Shown here piece by piece: positions 1 to 35,826 of a DNA stretch of 64,000 nt; position 1 is the first letter of the stretch; every line of letters begins with the position of its first letter. The notes beneath the pieces are model-generated. The model saw only the letters and a list, made by a program, of their open reading frames with translations, was not told where the DNA came from and did no database searches. The stretch covers positions 3,038,001 to 3,102,000 of the forward strand of contig OX344752.2 in the NCBI GenBank assembly GCA_947034885.2, in the 5' to 3' direction. A program made the translations under genes and the position numbers. Source of the DNA: Thuidium tamariscinum (lineage: Eukaryota; Streptophyta; Bryopsida; Hypnales; Thuidiaceae).

Positions 1-181
1 TTTGTAGATGCATTCAGAGCAGTGCCAGATTTCAATTGTACTCTAGGGTGAGAGAAATTGACCTTATCTAGGCGGTGGGAATCACCTTCGGATCCAATAG
101 GCTCATCATGCTTGCGCTTTGTGGAGCCGAAGACTTCCTCCCCTTCTAAATGGGGTACACGTGTGCACAGTTCCTCCGCAC
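1..181 (-). pseudogene. Distal coding part of the split transposase gene (continues off the left edge)
   Basis: Read on the minus strand, 181 to 1 stays open in the frame that ends at the other side of the hAT-like insertion. Upstream of the insertion the codons read M-L-G-A-E; here they resume G-A-E-E-L-C-T-R-V-P, the shared GGT GCG GAG lying in and beside the duplicated target site. The segment is charged and has no recognisable domain. The gene continues beyond the window, so its C-terminus is unknown. Confidence 0.6.
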
Positions 182-432
182 CAGGGTTGTCATACCGGGC
201 GGACGTCCGGTTCGCCCGTCCGTCCGTCCGAGACGTCCGATAGAGCTCTCGCCCGTCCGATAGGGTCAACACATAGTTGACTTTTTTAAAAGGTAATAAA
301 AAATCCACGTGGATTTAAATTCATGCCACCTAGACACCACGGGCGCGGACACGACTAAACAAGGCGGGGACGTGAGACAGGGCGGGGACGTGAAAAATGA
401 CAAGGAGCGGACGTCAACTTCTTTCTGCTTTT

Positions 433-542
433 GCAATTGGAGTTCTCAGAATTTGGAGGCATGCAATATACCATTGGAAAGGTATTCAAAATACCTTTCC
501 AATGGTATATTACACGCCTCTAAATTCTCAAAACTCCAATCA
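433..542. repeat. Long palindrome 1 of 5 in the hAT-like element
   Basis: The arms contain ATATACCATTGGAAAGGTAT and its complement, extended on both sides by the CAATTGGAGTT block. The spacer is only a few bases. Confidence 0.75.
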
Positions 543-690
543 CAAATTGGAAAACAAATCTACTACTAAAATCCACTATGCAGAGAGTCCATGAGCAGGC
601 GCGGACGCAAGTCTGGGCGGGGACGCTAGGGCGGGGACGCAAAGACGGGCGCGGACGCTAGGGCGCAGACGTCAACTTTCTTCTGCTTTT

Positions 691-801
691 GCGATTGGAG
701 TTTTGGGAATCTGGGGGCGTGTAATATACCATTGGAAAGATATTTTGAATACCTTTCCAATGGTATATTACACGCCCCCAGATTCTCAAAACTCCAATCG
801 C
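691..801. repeat. Long palindrome 2 of 5
   Basis: Arms of about 53 bp run from GCGATTGGAGTTTTGGGAAT to its near-complement and meet around TATTTTGAATA. Confidence 0.8.
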
Positions 802-1899
802 AAATTGAAAAACAAATCTGCTGCCAACATCCAGGGCGTGGACGCGAGCCAGGGCGGGGACGTCAGGGCGCGGACGTCAGGCAGGGCGGGGACGTCAGGG
901 CGCGGACGCGAGGCAAGGCGGGACCACAAACTGCGTGGGTGTTTTCAAATGGCCTTGGCCTTGGGATTCCTCTTCTTCACTAAACCCGCCCCCCCAAAAG
1001 GCCACATTAATTACTGTCAACTCATTTGTGCACGGTTGACTAGATCTCCAAGTACATGGAGGTCAAATGGACACATTAAGAACTCCACCTACCAACTACA
1101 ACTTGCACAAGGGTGGAGGCCTTTGAGAGCTAAGTGCATTTCTCTTTCTTGTGGCCTAATTCCTCAAATCTTCTTTCTCACAAGACCATGGATTCTTCAT
1201 TCTTGAATTGAATCTTTGGGAACTTGGAGGGTAAAATAGTTCTTTGTTTGTATTTGTTTTCCTCAATTTGATTCTTGAAGGCTTTGGATGGGGTTATTAG
1301 AGGGTGATGTAGCCCTTGCTATTTATTTATACCAAAGCTTGGATATGTAGGTTATTTTTTGACTTTCTCTTATAGTAGTTTTACTTAATTATTTATTGTG
1401 TAAATTCTAAAGAAGGGATTTAGTGAAGGGCGCGTCTTTTTCCATTGCTTTTTTAAGTAATTTGAATGAATGGTTTTTTTTCCCTTACCATTTCTTTATT
1501 TTACTTTAGAAAGTGTGAAGAATTAATTAATAATAGTGGAGGCCCTTGTCCTTCATTTATTTTAGGGCGGTGTACAATTGAGTTCCCCTAGGGATTGTTC
1601 ATTTAGTTATTGAATGCATGAAGGAGGGATTTGGAAGAGAGGAGGAGGTGACTTTGTTGTATTTCTTAAAATCTTGAAGTAGAGTTTTTAGTTCTTGAGG
1701 AATTTTTGTGTTTTTTGATGAATGTCTTAAAAAATGATACAATGGGGACCAAGGGCACTCTCTCCCCATTTTTCTTTCCATATAGCATTTATATTGTTGA
1801 AGGGAATTTAGAATTTAATTTTTTAATGATTGAATGAAGGATTAATCACACAATTTTATTATCTCAATCCTTGAAGATCACAATGGATATAATTGGTAG

Positions 1900-2160
1900 G
1901 GACGCTAGGGCGGGGGCCTTACGGCTAGAACAACAATGGAGTGGAACCTTGGTAGGCCTTTCAAATGGACTTGGGGTCATATGATTATTCTTCTCTCTAA
2001 AATTGAGGGATTACCTCAATGTTGTCAACCCATTTTTGTACTACAAACTAAATCTACAAGTTCATGATGGTGAAATGGTCACATTAATTACTTCACCTAC
2101 CTCAATTTGCAAAAGAGTTGAAGAATGAATGCATTCTTATTTTTGGGGGCCTACATTTAA
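1900..2160 (+). repeat. Inner inverted repeat (partner 3370-3610, third copy 4600-4860)
   Basis: The sequence from GGTAGGCCTTTCAAATGGAC to the GGGGGCCTAC end matches the reverse complement of 3370-3610 with scattered differences. A more diverged copy, in the orientation of 3370-3610, lies at ~4600-4860. The fold-back organisation therefore exists at two scales. Confidence 0.65.
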
Positions 2161-2274
2161 TAGAGCAAATGATTGAGGAGTCGTAACCTTTTTAGATTCG
2201 TCCAAAAGAATATGAAAATGAAGTGCATATATAGTTATATATGAACATTACTCATTTATTTTCTTTTTCAATAT

Positions 2275-3310
2275 TCCTACATTTAATTGCTTAGGCAAAA
2301 AATAACCTTTGTCTCTATTGGGAAAAAGAAATCATAATAAATCAAATACCTTTGTTGCTTTTGTATTTGTACAACTAAATGTTGATCCAAACTTAGGCAA
2401 GGAATATCCTTGGCTTCTATCATAGATAAAAAAAAATTAAATGGTTCAAGTGCCTCCCTTTTAATCCTTTCTTTTCTATTGCAACAACTAAATGTTAAAA
2501 CAAGTTTAGGAAAGAAATAGCCTTTCTATCTATTAGGCAAATAGAAATATTAACAAATCAAAACCCTCCTTTTTAATTCCATTTATGCTATTTTCACAAT
2601 CAAATATTAAACCAATATTAGGCTAAAAATAATCTTTCTCTTTATTAGAGAATTTTTTTCAATGATTCAAGTACCTCTTCTTCTTTTCAATTTCTACAAT
2701 TCCACAATCCTAGCTTAGTCAAGATTCAAAAACTAACCTTTACTCCTATGGTGAAAAGAAGTGTAAAGGATTCAAGTGTCCCCCTTCTTTTTCCATTTTT
2801 GCAATTAAATGATCCAAACTTGGGTAAGGAAACAACCTTGACTCTTATTTTAAATAAAATAAAATAAAATGATTTAAGAGTTCCCTTTCATTCCTATTCC
2901 TATAATAAAATGTTGAATCAACTTCACACAAAACATAACATTGACTGGTATTTTAAAAGAGAAAAAAAATATTCAAGTGTTCTCCGTTCTTTTCCATTAC
3001 CACAATTCAATGATCCAAGTTTGGGCAAGAAATAACCTTGACTTATATTGTAAGAAAAAATTCAATGAATCAAATGCTTTCTTGGAATTCCCTCTTTCTA
3101 TAATTCCCACAATTAAATGTTAGACCAAACTTAGGCAAAAAAAAACTTGATTTCTATTGTAGGAAAATAAAATAAAATAATTCAAGTGCCTCCCCTTTTG
3201 TTCCTTCTTTCCTATTCCAACAATAACTTGAACCAAACTAAGCAAGAAATAACCTCAACCTCCAATGGACAAAATTTTTTATTATTCAAAGTGTCTCTTT
3301 AAAATTTTTG
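2275..3310 (+). repeat. Degenerate ~110-120-bp tandem array
   Basis: About nine diverged units recur, each with a 'caattaaatgttgaaccaa' block, a 'cttaggcaagaaataacctt' block and a 'attcaagtgcctccc' block. Units are heavily mutated and have small indels, so the array is old. It forms the AT-rich loop centre of the fold-back element. Confidence 0.6.
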
Positions 3311-3644
3311 GTGTTTAATTGAAGGTTGAAGTGGCAAGGTGCCTTGAGAGGAAACAAGACATAGAAAGGTAGGCCTCTAAAAATAAGAATGCATTCCTTC
3401 TTCAACTCCTTTGCAAATTGGGGTACGTGAAGTATTTAATGTAGCCATTTGACCATCATGTACTTGTGGATTTGGTTCATAGTACAAAAATGAGTTGACA
3501 ACATTCAAGTGATCCCCCAATTTTAGGGAGAAGAAGAATCCTATGACCCCAAGATCATTTGAAAGGCCCGCCAAAGTTCCCTCTCCATTCTTGTCCAAGC
3601 TGTAATGTCCACACCATAGCGTCCACGCCCTGTCGCGGACGTTG

Positions 3645-4560
3645 GGGCGCAGACGTCAATTTTCTTCTGCTTTTGCGATTGGAGTTTTGGGAATCTGGGG
3701 GCGTGTAATATACCATTGGAAAGATATTTTGAATACCTTTCCAATGGTATATTACACGCCCCCAGATTCTCAAAACTCCAATCGCAAATTGAAAAACAAA
3801 TCTGCTGCCAACATCCAGGGCGTGGACGCAAGGCAGGGCGGGGACGTCAGGGCGCGGACGTCAGGCAGGGCGGGGACGTCAGGGCGCGGACGCGAGGCAG
3901 GGCGGGGACGTCAGGGCGCGGACGCGAGGCAGGGCGCGGACTTCAGGGCGCGGACGCGAGGCAGGGCGCGGACTTCAGGGCGCGGACGCGAGGCAAGGCG
4001 GGACCACAAACTGCGTGGGTGTTTTCAAATGGCCTTGGCCTTGGGATTCCTCTTCTTCACTAAACCCGCCCCCCCAAAAGGCCACATTAATTACTGTCAA
4101 CTCATTTGTGCACGGTTGACTAGATCTCCAAGTACATGGAGGTCAAATGGACACATTAAGAACTCCACCTACCAACTACAACTTGCACAAGGGTGGAGGC
4201 CTTTGAGAGCTAAGTGCATTTCTCTTTCTTGTGGCCTAATTCCTCAAATCTTCTTTCTCACAAGACCATGGATTCTTCATTCTTGAATTGAATCTTTGGG
4301 AACTTGGAGGGTAAAATAGTTCTTTGTTTGTATTTGTTTTCCTCAATTTGATTCTTGAAGGCTTTGGATGGGGTTATTAGAGGGTGATGTAGCCCTTGCT
4401 ATTTATTTATACCAAAGCTTGGATATGTAGGTTATTTTTTGACTTTCTCTTATAGTAGTTTTACTTAATTATTTATTGTGTAAATTCTAAAGAAGGGATT
4501 TAGTGAAGGGCGCGTCTTTTTTCATTGCTTTTTTAAGTAATTTGAATGAATGGTTTTTTT
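3645..4560 (+). repeat. Third, direct copy of the arm sequence with an expanded minisatellite
   Basis: It matches 666-1488 in the same orientation. The GGGCGCGGACG-type array at ~3820-3995 has several more units than the corresponding ~835-915 of the left arm. Identity stops abruptly at ~4560 after a run of T, where the left arm continues differently. Confidence 0.8.
3675..3785. repeat. Long palindrome 3 of 5
   Basis: This is a copy of palindrome 2 in the third repeat copy. Confidence 0.8.
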
Positions 4561-6441
4561 AAAGTGTCCCTTTAAAAGTTTTGGTATTGAGTTGAATATT
4601 GAAGTAGCAAGGTGCTTGGATAGAAACAAGACATAGAAAGGTAGGCCCCAAAATTAAGAATGCATGCCTTTTCCAATCCTTTTAAAGATTGAGGTAGGCG
4701 AATTATTTAATATGGCCATTTCAACATCATGGACTTCTAGATTTGGTCTCTAGTACAAATATTACCTCGCAACATGAAAGTAATTTTTTGATTTTAGGGA
4801 GAAGAAGAATCTCATTGCCCCAAGTCCATTGAAAAGGATTGTGAAGGTTTCTTCTATACTTTTATCCATTAATGCTGAAGCTTATACCTAGCTTTGCTTG
4901 ATTCAAGTTATTGTTTGAATAGAAAAGAAGGAACAAGACGAGAGGCACTTGAATTATTTTATTTAATGGATTGAATTCATTTAAATTTTTCTTTGAATGG
5001 AAAGAAAGATTATATGTTGCCTAAGTTTGGTTCAACATCTAATTGTGAATATAAAAAGGATGAAACTAAAGTGGAGGCATTTTAATCATTTAAATTTATT
5101 TCTTTGTATCATAGAAATCAATGTTATTTCATATTCTAGATAACTATACAATTAATTGTGTCAATAGGATAAATGGAAAATATTAGTTTTACCTAATTTT
5201 TATCTTTCTTCTTGCAATTGGGAGAAAGGTTGTCTTTTATTCAAGCTAAACTCAACTCTCAATAGAATTTTATTGAAAAGAAAGAAAAGAGCTATTGAAT
5301 TTAAGTTAAGAGTATCTAAGACTTTCCTTTGAAAATTTGGAAAAAAAATTATATCCATTGTGACCTTCAAGGATTGAGATATACTAAAATTGTGTGATTA
5401 ATCCTTCATTCAATCATTAAAAAATTAAATTCTAAATTCCCTTCAACAATATAAATGCTACATGGAAAGAAAAATGGGGAGAGAGTGCCCTTGGTCCCCA
5501 TTGTATCATTTTTTAAGACATTCATCCAAAAACACAAAAATTCCTCAAGAACTAAAAACTCTACTTCAAGATTTTAAGAAATACAACAAAGTCACCTCCT
5601 CCTCTCTTCCAAATCCCTCCTTCATGCATTCAATAACTAAATGAACAATCCCTAGGGGAACTCAATTGTACACCGCCCTAAAATAAATGAAGGACAAGGG
5701 CCTCCACTATTATTAATTAATTCTTCACACTTTCTAAAGTAAAATAAAGAAATGGTAAGGGAAAAAAAACCATTCATTCAAATTACTTAAAAAAGCAATG
5801 GAAAAAGACGCGCCCTTCACTAAATCCCTTCTTTAGAATTTACACAATAAATAATTAAGTAAAACTACTATAAGAGAAAGTCAAAAAATAACCTACATAT
5901 CCAAGCTTTGGTATAAATAAATAGCAAGGGCTACATCACCCTCTAATAACCCCATCCAAAGCCTTCAAGAATCAAATTGAGGAAAACAAATACAAACAAA
6001 GAACTATTTTACCCTCCAAGTTCCCAAAGATTCAATTCAAGAATGAAGAATCCATGGTCTTGTGAGAAAGAAGATTTGAGGAATTAGGCCACAAGAAAGA
6101 GAAATGCACTTAGCTCTCAAAGGCCTCCACCCTTGTGCAAGTTGTAGTTGGTAGGTGGAGTTCTTAATGTGTCCATTTGACCTCCATGTACTTGGAGATC
6201 TAGTCAACCGTGCACAAATGAGTTGACAGTAATTAATGTGGCCTTTTGGGGGGGCGGGTTTAGTGAAGAAGAGGAATCCCAAGGCCAAGGCCATTTGAAA
6301 ACACCCACGCAGTTTGTGGTCCCGCCTTGCCTCGCGTCCGCGCCCTGACGTCCCCGCCCTGCCTGACGTCCGCGCCCTGACGTCCCCGCCCTGCCTCGCG
6401 TCCACGCCCTGGATGTTGGCAGCAGATTTGTTTTTCAATTT

Positions 6442-6551
6442 GCGATTGGAGTTTTGAGAATCTGGGGGCGTGTAATATACCATTGGAAAGGTATTCAAAT
6501 ATCTTTCCAATGGTATATTACACGCCCCCAGATTCCCAAAACTCCAATCGC
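6442..6551. repeat. Long palindrome 4 of 5
   Basis: This is the counterpart of palindrome 2 in the right arm, with a slightly shorter centre. Confidence 0.8.
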
Positions 6552-6715
6552 AAAAGCAGAAGAAAGTTGACGTCTGCGCCCTAGCGTCCGCGCCCGTCTT
6601 TGCGTCCCCGCCCTAGCGTCCCCGCCCAGACTTGCGTCCCCGCCCGGCCTTGCGTCCGCGCCTGCTCATGGACTCTCTGCATAGTGGATTTTAGTAGTAG
6701 ATTTGTTTTCCAATT

Positions 6716-6828
6716 TGTGATTGGAGTTTTGAGAATTTAGAGGCGTGTAATATACCATTGGAAAGGTATTTTGAATACCTTTCCAATGGTATATTGCATG
6801 CCTCCAAATTCTGAGAACTCCAATTGCA
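6716..6828. repeat. Long palindrome 5 of 5
   Basis: This is the counterpart of palindrome 1 in the right arm. Confidence 0.75.
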
Positions 6829-7135
6829 AAAGCAGAAAGAAGTTGACGTCCGTGCCTTGTCATTTTTCACGTCCCCGCCCTGTCTCACGTCCCCGCCCTG
6901 AAGTTGACGTTGAAGTCCACGCCCTTCCTATACGCGTCCACGCCTTGACACTATTACGGTGAAGTCCGCGCCCTGATGGAGACGTCCGTGCCCTGGATCT
7001 CGTTTTCGAAGCTGACGTGTCAACCCAAAAAAATCCCACTACTTTGAAAAATGGAGCCGTCCGGTCCGTCCGGACACGTCCGTCCGTCCGTCCGGGACGT
7101 CCGGTGACCCTGACTCGTCCGTTATGACAACCCTG

Positions 7136-10064
7136 CTCCGCACCAAGCATACTGCACAATGCATCAATAATCTTCTTCCCGTCCATAGATGCTACTGCTC
7201 GCTTTAACTTTAGATCATGTCGGGACGGTCCAGTTCCAGAAGGTCCACCATTCAGATACACTCGATAATTAGTCATTTGTATAAATGTTCGAATCCAATC
7301 GTCACAAGTGGCAACATATAAGTCGGTACCACGTTTCCCAGATGCTTGAAGCCACTTGTTGTGAATCATTTCCGATAGGTTGCAGGATGGAATATCTGCT
7401 TCTTCGTTTGCTGACAAACTCTGGAAGTACAGAAATAGGACATGTCAATAAGAGTGGCAAATGAGAATAATATAACACAACCAAAATATCCAATTTAAAG
7501 AAGGGACGATCATTCAGCCAATACCAAGAAAGGACTATACCGAGACATCGTAGATACTTTTGACTATAGATACAGGAAAAACCAAATCCACCGAGTACAT
7601 ATAAGTATTTTAGTTTAGAGATGAGGTTGAGGGGGGGGGCCCAGGCCGCGACGTCAATCAATCACAAAGGGCTTAAGGGTCCTTTTCATAAGACGAGAGT
7701 TGTATACTACCTACAAAATGGGCAACCAAAACCCTATAGCGACGGCCTCTCGGTGGCGAGACAAGATTCAGATGAAGATCCCAGATGCAACTGAGGGACA
7801 ATTTCACTAAGTAAGAATAGTTAATGTGTGAAAATCTAGAAACTAAGGTTGTGATAAAGACAAAATGGACATTGAAAAATAAATAAAAAATAAAAGAAAT
7901 TACTTACTGTCTCCATGAATCCACCCCATTGGCGATAACGGAAGTGCCATAAAGATAACCAAAGCTCTAGCTCTCTCAGCGACTCTTCAGAGGCTGCACC
8001 AGACGAATACCACCATGCCTTGATTTGAAGATACCTACTCTCCGCTTCGTCTAGAGTCTTTGCATCTTTGTAATCTCTACACAACCTCACGTGTTGAGCT
8101 TGCATATCTCTCTTGATGAGTCGTTCCGTGTGCTGCTTCAAAGAAGTTGCCCAGTGGAAAAGGCACGTGCGTTCTCTATCAACCATTTTGATGGATGCAT
8201 CACCTGAACCATAAACGATCCTAATGGCATTCCAATTTGCTTGAGCACTATCTGCCATGAAGCCTTTGAAGTTGGGATTGTCCAATCCATTTTTCTCCAT
8301 AACTCGATTCAAGCATCTCTACATGATGGCTTAGCCCTCCGTGTCCTCAGATTGCATGTCGCAAACCGCTATAGTCATCACCTTGCAATAAATTGAATCA
8401 TAAACATGGCAAGCGATTGTAGTCCAACCTTTGACACGCTTCACATGGTCAAACATAAGCCAACAATTCTCCAGATCCCCACCTGGTTGCATGCGCTTCA
8501 CAAGATCGACTCCACTTCCAGGGCCGTCCACAAGCATCTTGAAGAGGTACACCTTTTCTTGTCCTTGTCCGGGAAATATACTGTCGTGAATGAACTCGAT
8601 CTTGGCCTACCTCTTCATTGCAAGTAAGCGGTCGATTTCACCTCCCCCGCTTCCATTGCTTCGGAAAGAGGCAATGATGTTCCGAACGTTTGGAGAACTT
8701 AAGACTTGGAACTTGTCCATCACTGCATCCAAGGCAAGGCCTTTCAACATTTCTTTCGGAGAATCACCTGAATGAACCAAAAACGTATCCAAGAATTCCT
8801 TGCTAGCAGCTAAAGCTATGGCGGAGGCTTTAGCTGTAGGTGTTTTTGCAACCTCTTTTGCTAGAAGGCTAGAAACGGTGTCCACTGAATCTCTACAAAG
8901 ACCATCTGGAACTAGGTGGTTATGATTGCCTAGATGAATGCAAGCCCGGGTCATATGAGATGATCCTACAACATAGTAGATCCTAGCATCACAGAAACTG
9001 ACACAGGTAGGTGAAGTTTTACAAACTCTACAAGCTAAAGTGGAATCTCGTGGTGGAATCGACCCTATGAGGAACGGAGTACTAGTATTACCCAACCACT
9101 CAATCTCGTTTCTCTTAGAGCACCTAGATATGTAATCGCAAGATGTGTTGGTACATATAAGGTGACCAACGCATGAAGACTTCCTAAATTTGAGGCCAAG
9201 ATTGTTGTGAATGTTTGAGGTCATCATGCGACACCACGTATGACCATCGTAGCGTTTGTCCATACCAGCCATACTCTTCGAAGAGCTCGACGAAGGTAAT
9301 GAATGGCAAGGTGGCAATTCTAGGACAATATCACCGTCAAATGATGTTGGAAGAAATGGAACTGTCTTGTGCTCAATCGAATCAAAATCAATCTGGGCGA
9401 GCTCGTTTCTGCATCCTCGAATAGTCCGTAGCTTCTTCAGAGAGTCTATAACACTCGAACTGCCTTGTTCTTGTGGATACAACGGCGGTCGAGAGAACAC
9501 TGAACTACCAACACTACTATCTCGCATACCAACGGATTCAGGTGTTCCAAAGTGCACATAAGTGCCAATGGTTTGTGATTCGGATACGAGACAATTGTAC
9601 TTCACTGGGTCTTCCTCTGAATCACTAGACAACACAACAACAGGACAGGGGAAGCTTCCTTCATCATCCTTTGATGAAGGAAGACCGTAATGAAGAGAAG
9701 AGGGGGAGAGTCCATCAGGCTCCAACTTGACGTCTCGCAACGTAGGAATAGAAGCTGCGTCGGCCACAGGCACTAGCATCAAAACCTCTGTTGAAGCATC
9801 CATGACTTCTGTTGCTAATCCATAAGCCCTATAATGTCCAGCACCTAAGCTCCAGAAAGAGCCTTCCTCACTTCTAATTCTATGGATAAGAATCGAGTGG
9901 AGAAGCGTCCCGGATTCCGACTGTACTTCTTTCTCTACATAGATTGAAGACTCAACAAAACTATAACGCACATGAAGCAAGTGGCTTGAAACATCAGCTA
10001 AGCCAGAGGAATCAAGACAAAGAAGAAGTGGGACCTCGTGTCCATTTGCTCTGATAGAAGCCAT
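7136..10064 (-). pseudogene. MULE-like transposase pseudogene, main part (two exons)
   Basis: This is the remnant of a DNA-transposon transposase or a gene derived from one. The start ATG is at 10062-10064. Exon 1 runs from 10064 to 7908 in one frame but carries three nonsense codons: TAG at 8607-8609, TAA at 8331-8333 and TAG at 8319-8321. A GTAAGT donor and an AG acceptor define a 487-bp intron (7421-7907). Exon 2 continues in phase 0 from 7420 until the hAT-like insertion. Residues 298-383 hold a Cys/His cluster (Cys298, 304, 309, 345, 348, 375; His381 and 383 in GNHNHLV) resembling the WRKY/GCM1-type zinc fingers of MULE transposases. Further on, KGWTTIACHVYDS and GFMADSAQANW resemble the DDE-fold strands of MULE transposases. 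Seen: the intact frame apart from three stops. Inferred: the superfamily, from motif resemblance only. It diverges head-to-head from the ParB/methyltransferase-like gene. Confidence 0.7.
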
Positions 10065-10922
10065 TGCATCAACACAGTGTTGGAAAATAAAAACTAAATG
10101 AAGTCTTCTATGTGATACAGCATGACTTGAAGTTGAGATGGTCTGGTTTTAAGCTCATGATATTCTAGAATGTCTCCAAAATATTCTAACATGGAACTCT
10201 CAAAAGATATTCTGGGAAAGGTGACATTAAATGGATCAAACTCCCATGAAAATAGTATTGACGAGCATTAAAGAATGGATGAATATCATGCTATAAAATC
10301 TTGTTATATTGGGCTTGTCAGCAAGGTATGTGCTAATAGGCCAGTTAAGCTTGTTGAGTTCTATATCCAAGTAGGTCACCGAACTTACCATAATGAATAT
10401 ATGTACCTGCATAGACCGTCAGAATTACCTAGAATAAAATCACATCGAGTGGATCCGAAATACATACAAATCCAGAAAAGAATCTGATAATATTTCTCCT
10501 CCTAGAGCAATAGAAAATCAACATATAAGTAACTAAAATATATATAGTAATATCATAATAGATCAACTAATCCGTTGGGAAATTCTTAGGAATCAAGAAA
10601 CCAAAAATCATAAACAAGATTGTCTTTTGAAAAGAAAGATCAATAAATATGTCTGTTTAATACTATAACAATGGTGATTTTTGAATCTACACCCCAAACG
10701 ACTCGTACCGTAAATATAAGATCAAATGAAATCCGGAGCTCAATAATTAGTACTTGGAGCACTAACGGGTAACATTAATTTGCATACATATAAATCATAG
10801 TCACAAACTATGGAATGATTCATTTTCAAGATCCTAGACACAGGCTACAATAGACATGTATCCAACACTACGTCACGAGTTATTCACTACCTACGTGAGT
10901 GTAGCTTTTATTGAGAGGCCAG
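10065..10922. other. Divergent intergenic spacer
   Basis: This AT-rich spacer lies between the transposase pseudogene (-) and the ParB/methyltransferase-like gene (+). I see no transposon ends, RNA gene or convincing open frame. If both genes belonged to one element, their promoters would lie here. Confidence 0.5.
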
Positions 10923-11219
10923 ATGATAGTTGAATCCAATGCCGAATGCAGTAGAAAAAGTGTAGGTAAGAAAAGGAAGAGGGGAATGAGCCGCTGCTTC
11001 AGTAGTCTGAAGTCCTTGAAAATGTCTCGTGAAAATAGGCGCAGACACCTCGTACTGGCTCAGACAACACCGACTGCTGGACAAGATATCATTGGAAATC
11101 CGGAGGATACTTCTATTGATGGAAACATTGACAATGATCAACTCCCTCGATTCAGTAGTCTTCCCGAATTCCTCTCTCCTAGAAAGGATGACAACGGCAA
11201 CAACACTGAACCATGCAAT
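10923..11219 (+). CDS. Possible 5' coding exon of the ParB/methyltransferase-like gene
   Basis: It opens with ATG at 10923, stays open for 99 codons and ends at a good donor (AAT|GTAAGTTT) in phase 0. The next acceptor, at 11757-11758, also enters in phase 0, so it could be joined and would give a protein of about 1,212 residues. The peptide is basic near its start (GKKRKRG, possibly nuclear) and Ser/Asn-rich later, with no domain. Against it: a GC-rich stretch at ~11,440-11,560 looks like a promoter or 5' leader, which would put the start at the internal ATG 11777. Confidence 0.35.
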
Positions 11220-11776
11220 GTAAGTTTCCTTTCTCACCAATTCCACATTACTGAATTCCAAATATGCATGTACTGCCTCATGCTATTGAACATGGTCTAA
11301 TTTCTATCTACATTGCAAATTCATATTTAAGTCGGTCTTGACAGTGTTTAGGGTATATTAAACTAGCGTGATAATATCATTTAGAAGCAATGATTATTTC
11401 TTCTTGAAATATTAAAATTAAAAAATTAAAAAAAAATGGACCCCCGCCGGCCCGAGCCAGACGGGACCCCGATTAGGGTTTGGAGGACAGACTCCTCCAT
11501 TCGCAGTCCACCGCTCGCCTCCGACCCTCCGAGCCCCGTCCCTCCAGCTTCCCCTCAGGAAAGCTACTGATTTTGAGAATTGAATGTCATCTCACCCTCA
11601 CGTCGTCCATCTCTCCTCCTTGTGTGGATTTTCATTCTGTAGTTCTGTAACTCCCCCATTCAAACTGTTTGAGACATTGTGAAATTCTCATTTCCGAAAG
11701 CACTCTTCCCGATTGATGTTTTTGTGCGTCTTTCTAACGAGACAATCACATCTTGCAGATTGACGGCGTAGCTACA

Positions 11777-14700
11777 ATGGAGACACGGAGTGGAGCTATT
11801 GCAAGGACGAAGGCCACGGTTGCTCCCCCCATTGAGAAAGAGCCTCCCGATCTCGAGGTATGAGAATTGAACCTCAAACCCTTGCTTTTTTTTAGAATCA
11901 GCTCGTAATCAGGCTCAGGTGGGTTGTCAAACCCCACCCGTCTCGCACCGCGCACCCTGGGGGGGCCCTGTCGCCACCGAGAGCCCCCCAAGCGGAGACA
12001 AATTGTTGCGAAATTTTTCATTTAGAATCAACTCGTGCTCGGGTCGGGTGGGTTGTCAAACCCCACCCGCCTCGCACCGCGCACCCTGGGGGGGCCCTGT
12101 CGCCACCGAGAGCCCCCCAAGCGGAGACAAATTGTTGCGAAATTTTTCATTTAGAATCAACTCGTGCTCGGGTCGGGTGGGTTGTCAAACCCCACCCGCC
12201 TCGCACCGCGCACCCTAGGGGGGCCCTCTCGCCACCAAGAGCCCCCCAAGCGGAGACAAATTGTTGCGAAATTTTTTCTTTAGAATCAGCTCGTGCTCGG
12301 GTCGGGTGGGTTGTCAAACCCCACCCGCCTCGCACCGAGTACCACGGGGGGCCCTCTCGCCACCGAGAGCCCCCAGCGGAGACAGATTGTTGCGAAATTT
12401 TTTCTTTTAGAATCAGCTCGTGCTCGGCCAGGGTGGGCAGTCACACCCCACCCGCCTCGCACCGAGCACCACGGGGGGCCCTCTCGCCACCGAGAGCCCC
12501 CCAGCGGAGACAGATTGTTGCGAAATTCTTTCTTTTAGAATCAGCTCATGCTCGGCCGGGGTGGGCAGTCACACCCCACCCGCCTCGCACCGAGCACCAC
12601 GGGGGGCCCTCTCGCCACCGAGAGCCCCCCAGCGGAGACAAATTGTTGATTTTATTTTCTTTTTGAATCAGCTCGTGATCAGTTGGGGTGGGCAGTCACA
12701 CCCCACCCCTTGTCTCGCGACGCGCAACCAGGGGCCCTCTCGCCACCGAGAGCCCCTTCTCGGAGGCAGGGCCTTGCCATCTCTTACACTCTGCTGATTT
12801 GGGCATTACCCATCTATTTGAATTGTCAGGTGGACACTACTTGCAATACGTCCTCGGGTCCTTCCTCCACCGTTGCTGGAGCACAGGATACAATAGAATG
12901 TAGCGATCAATTGCCCCCAGTGCCGGCCCCCGCCATTGAAGATGAGGACCACATTCGCAGGTCCCAGAACGTTGATTCAATTTCAACAATAGCTAGTATG
13001 CGAATCTCCCCTAATCGCCTCTCCCGAATGGCGATCCCGTTGTGTCGTATGGTCCCCATGCCGATGGTAAGACCTACCCTGGATTCTGATGTAGACGAGT
13101 TGGAGACGAAATTCGTTCACGGGTACGAAGACGGAGCCAGAGTATTCTATGTTTCTGTCTCAAATGAAGAGGGCGAGGCAGGTGTGTTCTCTGAAGAGGA
13201 GAAGCTCGGATGGGGACCGATTTGGAATGACGTGAATGCTGAGTTTAACAAGGAACTCAGTAGTCACATTGAGTTGCAGCACTTGGTTGATGCCAAGTTT
13301 TACATTTGCGACGGCAATCACAGATATGCTGCTTGGATGCGGCATATCAAAAGGCTTCACAGTGGAGAAGCTAAGTGGCACGTTCGGGTGGACTCCATCA
13401 TTTTGGACACGAAAGATAGGCTTGGGGCAGCAATGCAAGTCATGCATGATGTGAACAAGTGAGTTTTCTTATCTTATTATCACTTGTTTGAATTGAGATA
13501 TACTTTATCCATTTGGAATACTTATAGTGTGTTTGTTTTTGAAGGCACATGGAGAATTCCTTCGTGAAGACGAATCTTGTCCATACACTCTATCATGTTC
13601 GTAAGTATGGAACAATGTCCATTGAAAAGTTTTCAGAGATTTTGAGCTCAGAGGACGTTAAACTTTGGGGCGGCCATGCCCAAAAGAAGACTTGGTATAC
13701 GATGCCGTTGGAGGTGTTCACCACATTTATCTTTTAGGTTCGACATAACACACTGTGTTTTCTGGGTTTGTTGTCTAGTTTGTACAGTCATTGGTGTTTG
13801 AATTTACATCATTTCTTGGCATTCATTTGACCCAGGACTTCTTTGTTTGGCAGCAAGAGATATCTATTGCCTCAGATGCTGGAGTTCGCAAGTATCGTGA
13901 GGACACGGCCCCGGAGGATGTTACTAATACTGGTATTGCAAATGCAATGAGAAATGCAACCAAGAATGCCACGGACAAGCTTTACAAGAAGCTTTCAAAA
14001 ATTGTGTCCGTTGCTAATCCTGCATTGGGAGATGACTGGCTGAAGGAGGTTCGTTTCTTTTCGCTTTACAATTCGTGTAACCTTTTAGGCTTCTTTGTAT
14101 TTATTTTTGTTCTCTTATGTGTGGGCTTATGCTTGCAGATTGAGAGGCACTGGAGTTTGTACAGTGTCCAGGAGTTGACGCTAGACAAACTTCAACTTAT
14201 TGCTACTGCCAATGCTAGCCCACAGCACAAGGTCAAGTGGTTGAAGTGGATAAATTCATCCGCCCCTACTCGTGAAGCTCGTCGTGTTCCACCCAGACCA
14301 GCTAATGACGACAAGATTGGTTCCTTCTTATCCAAGGCGGTTTGGTTTGCTGGGGTAAGTAAGCATATTTGATTCATTGCTTTTGTTTCTTAAATAATTG
14401 GCCTAGTAACATTGATTTCCCTAGAGGTCCTGATCTGATTCGAATTTGTGTTCAATTGGAGGATGCAGCTCTTGAGTTGTATGAGACCATACTGAAGTCT
14501 GACAACATCGAAGTGAACATGGACGTACTCGCTGAGCCAATGTCTCTTTCCGACTACATCGAGTCTTGGAGGATGAAGTTGTGGGAACACTCATATCCTG
14601 GAGTTTTTAAAGGAGTTGAGGCATTCAAGAAATCTGAGTCCTTTAAGGACTATAAGGGCTCCCTTCTTGCCGTGAGACGGGTCTTATACAGGTACTTCTT

Positions 14701-17160
14701 TTACATCATTTTCATCTACAAAGTCAGTTATTTTCCCTAGTCTCTATTTGGAATTTGATATGTAGGCAGTGTCTTTGGAATCTAATGTACGTATTCACTA
14801 AACCGAAGATAACAAAAGCATCATTGTTTATTGATTCCATCACAAGTTCTAATTAATGTCTAATTCTTTTTGCTCTTCTTCACTGTCTAGTATGGGCATA
14901 GTATGAGGTTTGATGCTATGGTCTTTATTTGAGTATGATCTTGACTTATGCGTTGGGTTACTTCTTTAGGTACTTCACATTCGAATTATATGGAAAGCAA
15001 GCTATCTCCAAGTCCGATTTACCGCCATTCTTGCGTTCGTGGCGTGACTCGACATCATCGGATTGTATATTTTCTCCCACTCAACTGAAGTTTTGGCCAA
15101 TCGGCCATCTTCAACTGGGTACTTGGTACCTGGATTGTACCAAGGGTTTTACGGCACCGGAAGAAGTAGCCCTATTCCAGAGCGTCAAGGACTGTGTTGT
15201 TGTGCAGTCAGAGGTGGATGAGTTCTCAGGATTGGAAGGTGAGGCTCGTGACAAGGCCATCAAGAAGCGGGAGTTGGAGAATAAGAAGAAGGAGGAGAAG
15301 TTGGAGTCAGCCAAGAAGAAGCTTGAGGACACCGCGGTGAGAAAGAGAGACAAGTTGGCTGAGACAGTGAAGAACGACGGCAAAGAGAAGAAGAAGGGGA
15401 AGAAGCGCAAGGCGGAGGCTGCCCCAGTGGAGCATGCAACAAGTGATTTGGCCGCCAACCCCACTTCCTCGGGTTTCTCGCTTACGAAATCTCAGATGCA
15501 ACAGGGAAATCTGACTTTGGCTCCGGTTGCGATTGTGGATGCCAATGTGGATGAATGCATTCTAAATGAGTCTCTCACCAATTTGCTTGGTTCAGATGAT
15601 GGCCCTATCCCCGCTTCATTCACGAAGGTTCTCTCCCTTCTGGAAAAGGTAATTCTCTATGTACTCATTGCTTTGAACTATGAACATGTTGTTTCTTTAT
15701 AGTATAAGGGTGAGTGTGGAGAAATTCTTTGTGTTTGGTCTTGAACTTGTATGAAATTATTAATAAAAGTGTCCCTTGTTTTCTCTTATCTGCAGCATGC
15801 TTTGGACAAGGATCGTTTCTTCGATGGTGAGATTACTAAGCAGGCCTTAGTTGATCTCATTATAGTGGATGTTCCTGAGGACTTACCTGTCCCTAACATC
15901 TCTATTCCGCCATCCTCTGTTCCAAATTGGAACAAGTTTTCAGAAGAGTGGCTACAGACGATTTTTGATTTCGCAGAGAACTACCTCCATGATGGTGGTG
16001 GCCTTGTTCTCATGTACTCTCTGAGTCGTGAGATTCGATCTTATGTTTTGGATTTCTCTCGGAAGTATGGATTTACATCGAAAATGGAGTGGATGGTGTG
16101 GAACAGACTACGTCTTACCAATCCACTAGACCATTCTTCCACGGTAAGTTCTTCTGGCCTTTTCAAATAGACTATTTTTTTTCCATTTGAAAATGTTACA
16201 TTGATTCTAATGTATTGGAGTGGATTTGCAGACTGTGCGCTTCAAAATGAACTTGTATGTGAAGTCTGAGAAGTCCCGCTTTACATTTCGTCATGTTCTA
16301 GCGCACCAGGCTATCGACCTTGACATTGGCAGAGATGATCTTGTCCTGAATTGTTGTGAGATGGAGGATTTGGCAATGAATGGTACCATTCCATGGCGTG
16401 ATTCTCGTGAAAAGGCACAATCTTTCATGCAAATGATCATTGAGGGAACTACCTCGCCTGGTGACATCATCATGGATTGCACAGCCTCTACAGGTTCTAT
16501 TCTTTACTGTATATCACCTTATTTAGTGTTCTAGCACATGTCTTTTGCATTTGATCTTTGAACTTCATATCTTATTTTTTTTAATGTGATTGGGATTTTG
16601 CAGGAGTCAGCATCTACGCTTGTCGGGCTACTGGCCGCCACATTGTGGCGTTGGAGGCTGACAAGAGCATTTTTGATGCACTTTTAGCTCCGCTCTCACA
16701 TCCCATTTCAGCTCCTGAGCCAACTCCACAAAGCTCTACACCTGTCCCGATTGCTGACGATGAGGAGGTGGTCCCAATTCGTCAATTGCAGAAGACTTCG
16801 CGCTTTAGTAAGTAAGTTATTTTTTTTTCAATACTTTGACAATGTGAGTTCCCATTGTTTAGTATCTGACATTTGGTGTCATGATTTTGTAGGCAGGCAG
16901 CGGAAATGAAGATGCAGACATCCCGACCATTCTTTGCTAAACCGACGTTTTTCCCTAGCCCTCCTAAACCTTTTATGTTACCCGTGTATGCTGAGGCAGT
17001 AGCCACGCATTCTCAAACCATAGATACTCAACCTTCTTTTAGATCTCGTAGAACGGATCCACGAGTATCATTGTTTGTAGATGAGTCTGCTATAGAGTCA
17101 GACAGTGATCTATCGTTCAGTGGTGAGAGCTCTACATCAGGGTCTTCTAGTAGTACCTAG
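11777..17160 (+). CDS. ParB-like plus beta-class DNA-methyltransferase-like protein (11 coding exons)
   Basis: Exons read from splice sites and phase: 11777-11857, 12830-13458, 13545-13713, 13854-14048, 14139-14358, 14427-14691, 14970-15648, 15796-16143, 16232-16493, 16604-16811, 16893-17160. All junctions keep frame, giving 1,107 residues with no stop. Residues ~180-230 hold FYICDGNHRYAAWM, resembling the DGxHR motif of ParB/sulfiredoxin-like domains. Residues ~611-670 are Lys/Glu-rich (coiled coil or nuclear signal). Residues ~765-990 follow the beta-class order of N6/N4 methyltransferases: motif IV position first (LIIVDVPEDL, 767-776), then LHDGGGLVLMYS, then the cofactor motif (GDIIMDCTASTG, 939-950, followed by GRHIVALEADK). 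The usual DPPY is DVPE and FAGSGTT is CTASTGVS, so catalysis is doubtful. The Ser-rich tail ends at TAG 17158-17160. Donor 14359 with acceptor 14426 was chosen because neighbouring sites bring a stop. Function not assigned; a transposon-derived or domesticated gene is possible. Confidence 0.75.
11891..12770 (+). repeat. Intronic minisatellite, ~129-bp unit, about 6.8 copies
   Basis: Units start with TTTAGAATCAGCTCGTG at 11891, 12021, 12150, 12279, 12406, 12534 and (variant) 12662, a spacing of 127-130 bp. Each is GC-rich in the middle (CCCCACCCGCCTCGCACCG, GGGGGGCCCT, CCACCGAGAGCCCCC) and AT-rich at the end. The array fills most of the intron 11858-12829 of the ParB/methyltransferase-like gene. 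Confidence 0.9.
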
Positions 17161-18559
17161 ACCCACCTAGACTCTCTGATTTTGAACCCACTTTACTCGT
17201 ATATGATATTTTGTGTTGCTATCTACTTGCTTCTATCAGCCATCGCTATACTGATTGTAAAACCGCTATTTTCTTACTTCCAAAGCTTTCTATGCCCTTT
17301 GCTGGTCTTTGGTGTTCTAACTTCATCTGTTCCCTATTTCTTAACCGCCCTAAAACTTTCTCCACGGTCTTAGGCCCCACTTTCAAAAATTCCAAAAAAA
17401 ATTGAAAAATTCCTAGGCTCCTAGGCTCTTGGGCTCTTGGGCTCATGCTCCTGAGCTCGCAATATAGCAACCCCGGCTTGGTCTTTCAAGGATTAACAAA
17501 TTCTTTACCTTTGTCTACCTTTTGATTAGAGAAATTGTGGCTAGCTTACCAAAGCTTGCAATAGAGCAAGATTGTTCGATCCAAAAGTAACAACAAAAAC
17601 TCAATACATCCATTTCCAAATTTATAACAATTTTTGCTTTAAGAAATTATTCAATTTATGTTGAATTTTGCTAATCCCTTCCTTTGTCAAAGCTTACAAG
17701 CCGTATAGTTTTCAAGGGGCAAGAAGAAGATAAGTTCTTTAGATAAGTGAGGTGACCATAGAAAATACAACAATCCATGTAGAATATGTATATTCAGATT
17801 TATAAGAGTTCGATTCCTCACAATCAAGTCAAAAGCAAAAATTGTTTTCAAAGCAAAGTTTTAAACCTAATTTGGATATAGTAGATTAAATTTTTGCTTA
17901 ATACTTTAACTAAGAAAATATAGAAAATCAAGCCACCTTTCAAGTCCAAAAGAATTTCTATGATTTTTATAAATTAATTTATTCTAATAATAAAACAAAT
18001 ATGGAAAAAGTTCAATGAGGAGGTTTGAAAATGTAAGAAAAATGTCCATCCCAACCCTTTCCTAAATCTTTTCCATGACTGTTTATAGGAAGCTTTAAAT
18101 CACAAACAAGTTTTGTTGACTTAAATTTAGCTTCATTTCCAACATTTTCTTGGTTAAAAGTTTTTTCGAAAAGAATGATTCTACTATACTTAATTTAGTT
18201 TGAAGGTTTACTTCAAACACAAATTCTACATCTTATCTTATCTTTAAGTTATCTGATATCTTTTAAGGATTGATGAAAGACTAATAATGGATTTCACAAT
18301 AAAATCAACCTATCCACCTTGATTATCTTGAGGTGTCTATGATGAATCTCATCCATTTTGCCATCCTCAATTTCCTTAATGATAGATGGTGGATTGATAT
18401 ATTTTTCGAAAATATTAAATTTTTAACACTATTTGACTTTAGTTTCCCTTATTTCTAACTTCTATAGTCATTGATGTCTAAAAACAATTGGTTGTACTTT
18501 TTATAAATATTTTTTGTTGAACTAAATATATGCCTTTGAGACATTTATGGTGAATTTTA
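17161..18559. other. AT-rich intergenic DNA
   Basis: This follows the 3' end of the ParB/methyltransferase-like gene. A short stutter of 'ctaggctcctaggctcttgg' type lies near 17,415-17,450. I see no gene or delimitable element otherwise. Confidence 0.4.
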
Positions 18560-19330
18560 TTAACCCCTAAAGGACCACAACTATGTTTCCACCAAAACCA
18601 CTCTAAAACTGTCATTTCTAGGATAGCTACTGAATTTTAGAAAAAAAATATTTTTGGAATAATGTAAGCATAGGATCTTTTAGTTCTTTAATTTCAAAAG
18701 ATGGAGAACAAATTTCAGAAAATTCCGCCGTGTAGATTGCAAGATATTAGTGTATGAAGTTACAAAAATTCTTTTTTTTGCTACTATGAAAATCCAGGCA
18801 GTTGCACTTCAGACGGCCTTATTTGTATGAAAAAATGTTCAAAATGGTTGAAACTCTTTGTATTCATTCTTAAATTCAAGTTGGCTGTATGCTTGAAAAT
18901 TTTCAAATTATTTGGAATTGTACAATATGTACCAAAAAAATAGTAAATAGAAAGAAGTAGAGAATGATTTAAAACACTAAATTGTTAAGAACTTATTTTT
19001 TAAGCTTGCCAACTTCCAATGGTTCAAATGTTGTAATAAACAATCTACATCTAATATTTTTTTTTTTTCCAAAAATATTGAAAATTGAGTAAAATAAAGG
19101 ACTTCAAAGTTTATTTTAGAATTGGGAAACCGTAACTACCTGCAAACTAAAACTCTTCATAACTTTTGACTCATTAATCCAAATGGAATGATTCAAAGCT
19201 TTCCACATATATCTAAATCTATAATATCAATTTCAAATTTTTATTTTCAAAAAAAATGATTTTTTTTATCTGCCCGAGCTAATCAAGTTGAGAATGAAAC
19301 AACATATTATGCAATAACTTTTTAACCAGA
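18560..19330 (-). mobile_element. Partial TTAA-family element
   Basis: It starts with TTAACCCCTAAAGGACCAC at 18560 and matches, in opposite orientation, the complete element at 34876-35826. Shared blocks include the terminus, the 'ccactctaaaactgtcatttctag' region and 'caataactttttaacc' near 19,311-19,326. Similarity then fades and I cannot find the other end. Confidence 0.6.
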
Positions 19331-23175: not shown

Positions 23176-23392
23176 CCGTGGTTGATGCTTCGGCTTCCTC
23201 ATCGATCAACCTCTCCGTCTCTCAGCAGCTGCAGGCTTTCAGTTCAAGGTACATCATATTGCAGGGACTCCTCAATTCTATTGAGATCGAGTGATCGAGC
23301 TCTTGTATATTCAGCACTAGCTGCATCACTTACAGGTCTTTCAATTTTAGCAAGTGCACTCTCGGATCCTCCATCTTTGGCGTCGTGGAACC

Positions 23393-24388
23393 ATGGCTGC
23401 TTCGAGGTCTGCAATCGCAGGCTGCGTGGCCGTGTTGGCCATTCTCAGCTTGATAAACGCACCCGTGTCCGCTAGTCGAAGCCTCTCCAGTTACAGTCAC
23501 AGCTATGGCGGATGCCAAGAAGGCTTCTACCAGCACTCGTGCCCCAACGTAGAAACCATCATCTACGAGTCTATGCTCAAGTCGTTCCAAAAGGACCCCA
23601 CCATCGCGCCCGGCGTCCTTCGCCTCGCCTACCACGATTGCTTCGTCCGCGGCTGCGACGCATCCTTGCTCCTCGACGGATCCAGCTCCGAGAAAAGCAA
23701 CATCATCAACACCAAACTCCACGGCTTCGACGCCATCGACGCCGCCAAGGCCGCCGTGGAAGAGGCCTGTCCCGGCACCGTTTCGTGCTCCGACGTGCTG
23801 CAGTTCGCCGTGCGCGACACAGTGAAGTTGACGGGAGGCCAAGGCTGGACGGTGCCCGCTGGCCGTCGCGACGGCACGGTTTCCAGGTCTTCCGAGGTCG
23901 CCGCCAATCTCATGACTCCCAACAACACGGCCCCCGTGCTGCTGAACGCTTTCCAGAAGAAGGGTCTGAACGCCGCGCAGATGGTGGCCCTGGCTGGCGC
24001 ACACACCATCGGCGTCGCACCTTGCTTGACGTTCGATGACCGTATCCACGGGGAGAAGGTGGATCCCACCCTCCCGTCCTCGTTCGCGAAATCGTTGTTG
24101 AAGAAGTGCCCTGTGTCTGGCATCACTGACGTGGACGTGAACCTGGACAAGGTTTCTCCGAAGAAGTTCGACTCGCAGTACTTCAAGAACATCGTGAACA
24201 AACTGGGTTTGTTGACTTCCGACCAGAGCATGTGGGTGGACTCGCGCACGAAAGGATCCGTGCGTGCAAACACCGACCGGGCGACGTTCAACTCGAACTT
24301 CGCGAAGGCGATGGTGGCGATGAGCCAGATCGACGTGTTGACGGGCAGCTCCGGCGAGATCAGGCGAGTGTGCACCGCCGTGAACTAA
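23393..24388 (+). CDS. Class III (secretory plant) peroxidase, intronless
   Basis: This haem enzyme oxidises phenolics and other donors with hydrogen peroxide in the apoplast or cell wall, with roles in lignin-like polymer formation, wall cross-linking and defence. The ATG at 23393 (context AACCATGGCT) gives 331 residues and is preferred to an in-frame ATG at 23354 because it begins directly with a signal peptide (residues 1-~28, hydrophobic GCVAVLAILSLINAP). Distal site: RLAYHDCFVRGCDASLLLDG with Arg77 and His81. Proximal haem ligand: His204 in ALAGAHTIGVAPC. The eight conserved disulfide cysteines are present (50/126, 83/88, 132/327, 211/239 by family pairing), plus an extra Cys41. It is much richer in GC than its surroundings. 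Many seed-plant members have three introns; none interrupts this one. Substrate cannot be told from sequence. Confidence 0.95.
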   Translation: MAASRSAIAGCVAVLAILSLINAPVSASRSLSSYSHSYGGCQEGFYQHSCPNVETIIYESMLKSFQKDPTIAPGVLRLAYHDCFVRGCDASLLLDGSSSEKSNIINTKLHGFDAIDAAKAAVEEACPGTVSCSDVLQFAVRDTVKLTGGQGWTVPAGRRDGTVSRSSEVAANLMTPNNTAPVLLNAFQKKGLNAAQMVALAGAHTIGVAPCLTFDDRIHGEKVDPTLPSSFAKSLLKKCPVSGITDVDVNLDKVSPKKFDSQYFKNIVNKLGLLTSDQSMWVDSRTKGSVRANTDRATFNSNFAKAMVAMSQIDVLTGSSGEIRRVCTAVN

Positions 24389-34875: not shown

Positions 34876-35826
34876 TTAACCCCTAAAGGACCAAATTGTG
34901 TTTTTTGGCACCATAGCAATTTGGAGCAGCTCACTATGAATGGAGTTTTTATTTTTTTTCTTTGAAATTTTCACAAAACATGTGTCTGAGGAGTAGCTTT
35001 AAGGCCCAACAATTTTCATAACTTTTGACTACATGGTGAAAAAGTTATTGTATGATATGTAATTTTCTTTACTTGGCGGACAGCCCAGAAGCAAAAAAAA
35101 CTTCTTCAAAAATCACTTTTTTTTAATTTTTAATTTTGAAATTTGTTCTTTAGATTTTTATCTACTTGGAAAGCTTTGAATCATTCCATTTTAATTAATG
35201 AAATGAAAGTTATAGGAGTTTTAGTTTGTGGGTAGTTTATGGGTAGTTGTGGAATCTTTACTAAAATAAACTTTGAAGTCATTTATTTTATTCAATTTTT
35301 TAATATTTTTGAATAAAAACCATAATATTGGGTGTATATTGTTTATTAAAACATTACAACCATTGGGATTGGCATTTTTCAATCCCATAAAAAAATAGTT
35401 AACAATTTAGTATTTTAGATCATTTTCTACTTCTTTCTATTTACTTATTTTTTCCTACATCTTGTACAATTCCAAATCATTTGAAAGTTTTCAAGCATGT
35501 AGCCAACTTGATTTGAAGAATGAATTCAAAGAGTTACAAACATTTTGTACATTTTTTCATATAAATGTGAGCTACTGAAGTGCAGCTGCCCTGATTTTTA
35601 CAGGGTCAAAAAATGGTTCTTTGACAATTCAAACACTAATATCTTGTAATCTACATGGTGAAAATTTCTGAAATTTTTTTCCACATCTTCTTGAACTAGT
35701 TTATTTTAAGATCCTATGGTTACAAATATTCAAAGATGTTTTTTTCTGAGATTTTGTACTTGTTTTAGAAATGGCAGTTTTGGAGCGTTTTTGGTGAAAA
35801 CATAGTCAAAAACCTTTAGACGTTAA
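34876..35826. mobile_element. TTAA-family element, complete (951 bp)
   Basis: It starts TTAACCCCTAAAGGACCA. The other end is diverged (AACCTTTAGACGTTAA) but its subterminal sequence matches the intact terminus of the copy at 18560. Non-coding. Confidence 0.65.

Follow-up and report, generated by a model that had tools for sequence, protein, structure and literature searches.

A ParB-like/methyltransferase-like gene carried by a multi-copy, putatively Mutator-like transposon in the moss Thuidium tamariscinum

Introduction

The closest described system is found in Ectocarpus, where Sola1-1_Ec32, a Sola1 element of 21.5 kb, encodes opposite its transposase a 1,104-amino-acid protein with a ParB-like part and a DNA methyltransferase (MTase); the available part of the source also mentions relatives of this protein in green and red algae (PMC12477816). 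This was the only eukaryotic transposon protein of the ParB-MTase kind that we found in the literature searched. Here, we analyzed a 64,000-nucleotide stretch of the T. tamariscinum genome (assembly GCA_947034885.2, contig OX344752.2, positions 3,038,001 to 3,102,000 of the forward strand; "the window"), which contains an intron-rich gene with a ParB-like segment and an MTase-like domain (the ParB-MTase gene). We demonstrate that this gene is the cargo of a transposon, and we put at roughly 0.6 the probability that it is an accessory gene of a Mutator-like family of 12.3-13.5-kb elements, matched at more than 100 places in the genome, and that its protein serves mainly as a DNA-binding reader or helper.

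Accessory proteins that act on their own element are known from plants, for example the VANC proteins of the Arabidopsis VANDAL Mutator-like elements, which bind tandem repeats in the element that encodes them and counter silencing. In phages, a ParB-CTPase fold occurs fused to the N6_N4 methyltransferase family PF01555, with DUF1015 among the architectures given in the accessible part of the source (PMC12704722). A preliminary description of the window, made from its letters alone, had stated that such pairings are familiar from phages and bacteria and not from standard plant epigenetic enzymes; this statement stands with the caveat that Marchantia polymorpha has acquired a bacterial N4-methylcytosine methyltransferase (cited in the part of PMC12344493 that was available).

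Results

An intact gene of 11 exons

The ParB-MTase gene is real. When its 11 exons are spliced in frame they give 1,094 codons with a stop only at the end, 13 fewer than the approximately 1,107 residues of the preliminary description, and 40 and 85 stops appear when the spliced sequence is read in its two alternative forward frames. All 10 introns are GT-AG by inspection, with the exon-6 acceptor taken at the frame-compatible position 14462. The coding sequence has a codon-position information of 40.2 (200 shuffles reached 5.1 at most), and introns 2-10 give 5.8, inside their own null (maximum 11.5). The splice joins, this codon periodicity and the exon order in other copies bear out the exon model proposed earlier, and the DGNHR motif, the lysine-rich middle, the GGGL loop and the C-terminal cofactor-like sequence GDIIMDCTASTG that had been pointed out with it are all found in the spliced protein. 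That the 11 exons belong to a single gene is supported by copies elsewhere in the genome, since these keep the exon order. The start of the gene is uncertain, because a candidate upstream exon also joins in frame (Table 1).

The gene is the cargo of a multi-copy transposon

Alignment of the window copy with four copies from elsewhere in the genome revealed that they share a single segment, which ends sharply and is flanked by unrelated sequence. The left end of the element lies 1,777 bp beyond the window (contig position C4:3036224) and its right end at 17475; the window copy measures 19,252 bp with a hAT-like insert and about 12.3 kb without it, and the four other copies 12.6-13.5 kb, while a sixth copy (C3) was fetched in part only. 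The ends, CAACGACGCTAAATTG... and, reversed, CGGGGTTGCTATATTG..., agree at 30 of 43 positions in copies of the C6 type, as compared with a mean of 11.1 and a maximum of 23 of 43 in shuffles of the left end, and the right end in the window differs from the C6-type end by one further base. Five copies are bounded by direct repeats that are all different (GCTTGGTCT, CACGCACTC, CTATTGAAG, TATTTAGCCT and GCCATGGAGT), with target-site duplication (TSD) lengths of 9, 9, 9, 10 and 10 bp. A search within the window alone found no terminal repeats of the element, because the left end lies outside it. The shared ends, terminal repeats and TSDs in five copies directly confirm that the gene is transposon-borne, as had been supposed.

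Mutator-like elements (MULEs) make TSDs of about 9 bp, and Sola1 elements make TSDs of 4 bp. The 9-10-bp TSDs and the degenerate terminal inverted repeats suggest that the element is of the Mutator-like type, with no MULE transposase domain matched. Sola1 membership, which we considered in view of the Ectocarpus precedent, was put aside because the TSD length differs.

Head to head with the ParB-MTase gene, and either 0.9 or 1.7 kb from it because the ParB-MTase start has two options, lies a divergent partner gene that is probably the transposase. Its exon 1 is an open frame of 770 amino acids in four other copies, and its predicted protein has an RNase-H-like pattern (Asp, Asp then Cys-x-x-His, Glu), judged by eye. 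The hAT-like insert that interrupts this gene in the window is missing from the matching site in the aligned C6 copy; the insert has long inverted arms that are almost perfect (360-1894 and 5347-6900, 98%), and GC-rich tandem repeats in sub-terminal position. Neither the partner gene nor the element ends nor the insert had been mentioned in the preliminary description.

That description had also raised the possibility of domestication, i.e., a host gene of transposon origin, and the window copy, with a decayed partner gene yet an intact ParB-MTase gene, is what such a history would leave. However, the element that contains the gene is present in multiple copies, of which four near-identical, complete ones keep both the ParB-MTase exons stop-free and the 770-amino-acid exon-1 frame of the partner open, and the whole-gene ratio of nonsynonymous to synonymous substitution rates (dN/dS) of about 0.26 relative to these copies may reflect selection at the level of the family and not of this locus. 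We therefore consider domestication very unlikely.

Our search of the genome (363 Mb, 19 contigs) identified at least 150 matches to exon 8 at E<=1e-6 (the best 150 of 565 candidates, all matching), at least 150 to a fragment of the partner gene (the best 150 of 686, all matching) and at least 150 to the ParB exon (the best 150 of 611, all matching); these figures count matches and not exact copies, a few copies being split over two matches. At least 85 of the 150 exon-8 matches listed have a partner match on the opposite strand upstream within 30 kb, at a median distance of 9.3 kb. Taken by descending similarity, the pairing among the matches listed is 39 of 45, 9 of 22, 19 of 36 and 18 of 47. 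Random placement, for which the sizes of three contigs were guessed, gave a mean of 1.5 and a maximum of 6 such pairs, and wrong geometries gave 1, 4 and 0. Contig C11 holds 28 of the 150 exon-8 matches listed, which reach only to about 17.3 Mb, and our guess is that it may be a repeat-rich or sex chromosome.

A beta-class methyltransferase fold with altered motifs

The MTase motifs are named IV, X and I, and the catalytic motif IV of beta-class enzymes is usually (D/N/S)PP(Y/F/W), with an aromatic residue at position 4. Using a C-terminal piece of 247 residues (about residues 724-970 of the spliced protein) as the query, we obtained matches to the CcrM model of NCBIfam (1.8e-6), to the sequences of the DpnA (3.3e-6) and CcrM (9.9e-6) structures, to PHROG DNA methyltransferases (2e-5) and to Pfam PF01555 (5.7e-5), the last at 23.6 bits, or 16.8 bits for the whole protein, both under the curated cut-off of 26.7. 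Comparison with a profile of eight phage-collection methyltransferases by hhalign gave 98.2% over residues 27-240 of the piece, and the alignment has 10 invariant columns with the moss protein included and 16 among the eight comparators alone. The motif order is IV-X-I, i.e., that of the beta class, and the similarity spans most of the domain. We regard a beta-class N6/N4 DNA-methyltransferase fold, as proposed in the preliminary description, as well supported by these comparisons.

Phage records returned 198 MTase-type matches at E<=10 (best about 1e-4), none of which spans 80% of the query, and single-protein queries found no relative in IMG/VR. A six-frame PF01555 search of the whole genome, made without splicing, accepted none of 44 candidates at E<=0.001 (control matches were obtained in 11 of 14 genomes), a result that a spliced canonical plant enzyme could escape too. 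Because this search yields nothing at that threshold, PF01555 alone would overlook the ParB-MTase family.

Motif IV was compared in 14 sequences, the window copy and 13 fetched ones. The window and eight of the fetched copies have DVPE, two more have DMPE, and DCPE, DMPK and EYPN occur once each; D(V/M/C)PE is found in 12 of 14 sequences, DMPK and EYPN being the remaining two, and D(V/M)PEGL in 10 of 14, with GL following the motif in every sequence except the window (DL) and one other (NL). None of the 14 sequences has an aromatic residue at position 4. Since it is altered across all 14, the non-canonical motif IV is a family trait and not decay of the window copy. A motif-IV-like strand had been noted earlier, but the departure of motif IV, which lies in exon 8, from the usual DPPY had been overlooked. 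In addition, the position of HPTQKP carries a PWRGxREK-type stretch that is conserved across the family, and motif I resembles D(C)TA(S/A)TG, with (S/A)TG for the usual GSG; the motif I Asp, the last Gly of motif I and the motif II Glu are retained. This pattern suggests that catalysis has been lost or changed, with the S-adenosylmethionine (SAM) pocket possibly retained.

The same residues bear on a different explanation, in which the protein is an active self-marking enzyme whose ParB-like part loads on the transposon and whose MTase writes N4-methylcytosine or N6-methyladenine there. The beta-class fold and motif order, the three retained residues and the overall purifying selection described below would all fit such an enzyme, and several of the aligned phage MTases are also hydrophobic at the first Pro of DPPY (DIPY, DLPY, DLPF). 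Self-marking of the element by methylation has been proposed for the algal relatives, in the part of the source available (PMC12477816). The loss of the motif IV aromatic in 14 of 14 sequences, together with the replacement of HPTQKP and of GSG, leads us to regard it as unlikely for the moss family.

The gene is conserved across the element family

Four near-identical copies contain all 11 exons in order and stop-free, and a fifth near copy (c3) likewise has all 11 in order but with two stops. Eight divergent loci were selected to sample the whole range of identities, and in each of them 5-10 exons were found in the same order, which is kept down to about 40% protein identity. The missing exons result partly from short fetched stretches; the start of exon 1 was recovered in none of the eight loci, where it either fell beyond the fetched part or gave no match. 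A stop occurs in at least one matched exon in seven of these eight loci, with none in L048. Over exons 2-11, dN/dS is 0.25-0.28 against the four near copies, which differ so little among themselves that the comparisons are not independent; for two divergent copies it is 0.13 and 0.12 (dS 1.1 and 2.5). The ParB exons give 0.13-0.16 among near copies and 0.43 against c3, and the MTase exons give 0.17 against the copy with 77% identity. Overall, these values are indicative of purifying selection on the ParB-MTase gene.

A history as a passenger, i.e., as a captured prokaryotic or viral gene that is useless to the element and hitchhikes with it, would fit the prokaryotic or phage type of the MTase domain, as would the weaker selection that comparisons of near copies show for this part. 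Against this, the gene remains recognizable at about 40% protein identity and retains its exon order there, the partner keeps its arrangement across the identity range, and dN/dS is 0.12-0.13 against the two divergent copies; we find a passenger most improbable.

The ParB-like segment and the intron-1 array

Assignment of the DGNHR segment of exon 2 to ParB is plausible but unproven, and the evidence for it is suggestive. Weak matches from three libraries fall on this segment: to DUF1015 (E 0.0046-0.037, by the piece submitted; four of seven family members at E<=1), to a ParB-like partition protein in PHROG (E 0.012) and to DndB (E 0.13). A GxxR box II is present as GNHR in the window and in all 11 fetched copies that include the stretch, one of which reads NGNHR instead of DGNHR. 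A model built from seven sequences has the topology strand, helices, strand, DGNHR, helix, strand, at a mean predicted local distance difference test score (pLDDT) of 52. We found no relative of the stretch among phage and plasmid records.

The first intron of the gene contains a tandem array (Table 1), with 7 units in the window copy and 16, 9, 10, 11 and 6 in five other copies of the element. Covariation in the inverted repeats of the array was considered and dropped after the copies were looked at by eye.

Other features in the window

Outside the element, a 345-amino-acid open frame with a peroxidase domain of a kind typical of plants is present at 23351-24385 (PF00141, 1.4e-75), and an inverted repeat pair (18580-19264 and 35108-35806, 78% over about 700 bp) lies on either side of it. 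An aldehyde dehydrogenase exon is present at 39595-40230 (PF00171, 1.6e-57) and adjoins a 121-bp tandem repeat at 39252-39612, and an open frame with a SAM domain (PF07647, 8.4e-5) is encoded on the reverse strand at 53830-54381.

Table 1. Coordinates of the ParB-MTase gene, the element that carries it and associated features, numbered from the first letter of the window
Feature	Position	Strand	Remarks
ParB-like/MTase-like gene	11777..17160	+	11 exons, 1,094 amino acids
Gene exons 1-6	11777-11857, 12830-13458, 13545-13713, 13854-14048, 14139-14354, 14462-14691	+	
Gene exons 7-11	14970-15648, 15796-16143, 16232-16493, 16604-16811, 16893-17160	+	
ParB-like segment, exon 2 (DGNHR, box-II-like)	12938..13456	+	weak library matches; GNHR conserved
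Exon 8: MTase motif IV region (DVPE in place of usual DPPY) and GGGL strand	15796..16143	+	
Exons 9-10: motif X position (PWRGxREK-type, for HPTQKP) and motif I/II (DCTASTG ... ALEAD)	16232..16811	+	
Candidate additional upstream exon	10923..11219	+	in-frame join to 11759 would give 1,199 amino acids; KKRKRG basic stretch
Intron-1 tandem array	11886..12756	+	unit about 129 bp, 7 units, two inverted-repeat cores per unit
Transposon copy carrying the gene	1..17475	.	sharp boundaries shared with four differently flanked copies, terminal inverted repeats, 9-bp TSD
Right terminal inverted repeat	17433..17475	-	43 bp compared
Right copy of 9-bp TSD, GCTTGGTCT	17476..17484	.	
Partner gene (divergent, probable transposase), exon 1	7908..10064	-	three in-frame stops in window copy
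Partner gene, second exon piece	7136..7420	-	splice site placed by eye; insert interrupts; resumes 181-1 and beyond window
hAT-like insert inside partner gene	182..7135	.	6,954 bp; ends CAGGGTTGTCAT; TSD CTCCGCAC, 8/8

Discussion

We favor the reading in which the ParB-MTase protein is an accessory product of the element that acts mainly by binding DNA. The ParB-like segment would be a clamp that binds nucleoside triphosphate or DNA, and SAM binding may persist in the MTase-fold domain, with catalysis lost or changed there; a methyltransferase fold without the usual catalysis, joined to a ParB-like clamp, would argue for a mainly DNA-binding role. The simplest use of an element-encoded, selected protein with a ParB part and an MTase scaffold would be to recognize the element's own DNA, and the protein could thus be a DNA-binding reader, or an anti-silencing or transposition helper, that acts on its own element. 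Its docking site is possibly the tandem array in the first intron of its own gene. The most specific form of this idea is that a plant Mutator-like family turned a prokaryote-type ParB-MTase, once a methylation writer, into a non-methylating, self-recognizing, anti-silencing clamp that loads on the array in its own gene, and this form we consider quite unlikely.

Several observations weigh against the DNA-binding reading or parts of it. For the ParB-like part, PADLOC gave no match, and unrelated Pfam families score as weakly on the protein (zf-Di19 in three of seven family members, DERM at 0.022 in one of seven). A single-sequence model of this part had a pLDDT of 38 and was discarded. A fold search of the kind that the preliminary description had suggested gave no confirmation of a ParB-like fold: at a mean pLDDT of 52, the seven-sequence model gave 104 matches in the PDB at E<=10, none at E<=0.001, with no ParB or sulfiredoxin fold among the 50 matches listed, and a profile of the family found no convincing match among PDB sequences. 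The array motif was not found in the eight divergent loci, where the fetched stretches begin near exon 2 and are mostly without intron 1. Selection is less clear in some comparisons, in that dN/dS is 0.64 overall against c3, the copy with two stops, dS is saturated for six of the eight divergent loci, and the MTase exons give 0.41-0.58 among the four near copies and 0.95 against c3; the conservation that we observe would be compatible with an enzyme of changed chemistry, too. In addition, the partner protein has no Pfam match, even with the intact 770-amino-acid frame, and it is labeled a probable transposase because of the TSDs, the ends, the mobility of the element, the company of the two genes and the RNase-H-like pattern seen by eye.

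As far as our searches reach, four things are new relative to the literature searched: the plant as host, TSDs of the 9-10-bp type, the number of matches and a motif IV that is non-canonical throughout the family. Because near-identical copies exist in which both genes are open, the role of the protein can be tested, i.e., whether it marks the element, hides it from silencing or helps it to move.

Like VANC, the ParB-MTase gene would be an accessory gene adjoining a Mutator-type transposase, a likeness of description and not of sequence, and we know of no ParB or MTase domains in VANC. With CcrM and DpnA (PDB 6pbd, 5hfj) the moss protein shares the motif order IV-X-I and an alignment over most of the domain; unlike these enzymes, it does not retain DPPY, HPTQKP or the GSG of motif I. 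The phage fusions of ParB-CTPase and PF01555, as far as they are covered in the available part of PMC12704722, have the same domain pairing and the GxxR box II, whereas the gene described here, in contrast to these phage and bacterial fusions, is eukaryotic, long and rich in introns, and its motif IV is non-canonical. The Marchantia protein is, by description, also a bacterial-type N4 methyltransferase in a land plant, and in that case an acquired enzyme (PMC12344493, in part). Finally, from what the accessible part of PMC12477816 describes, Sola1-1_Ec32 encodes, on the other strand from its transposase, a protein of similar length (1,104 amino acids, as compared with 1,094 here) that combines domains of the same two types. 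It is a giant DNA transposon, from which the moss element differs in its 9-10-bp TSDs, its GAGC-rich degenerate ends and its plant genome, and the two are likened by description and not by sequence. The ParB-MTase accessory proteins of algal transposons now extend to a plant genome and to an apparently Mutator-type element, at high copy and with a conserved motif that is catalytically unusual.

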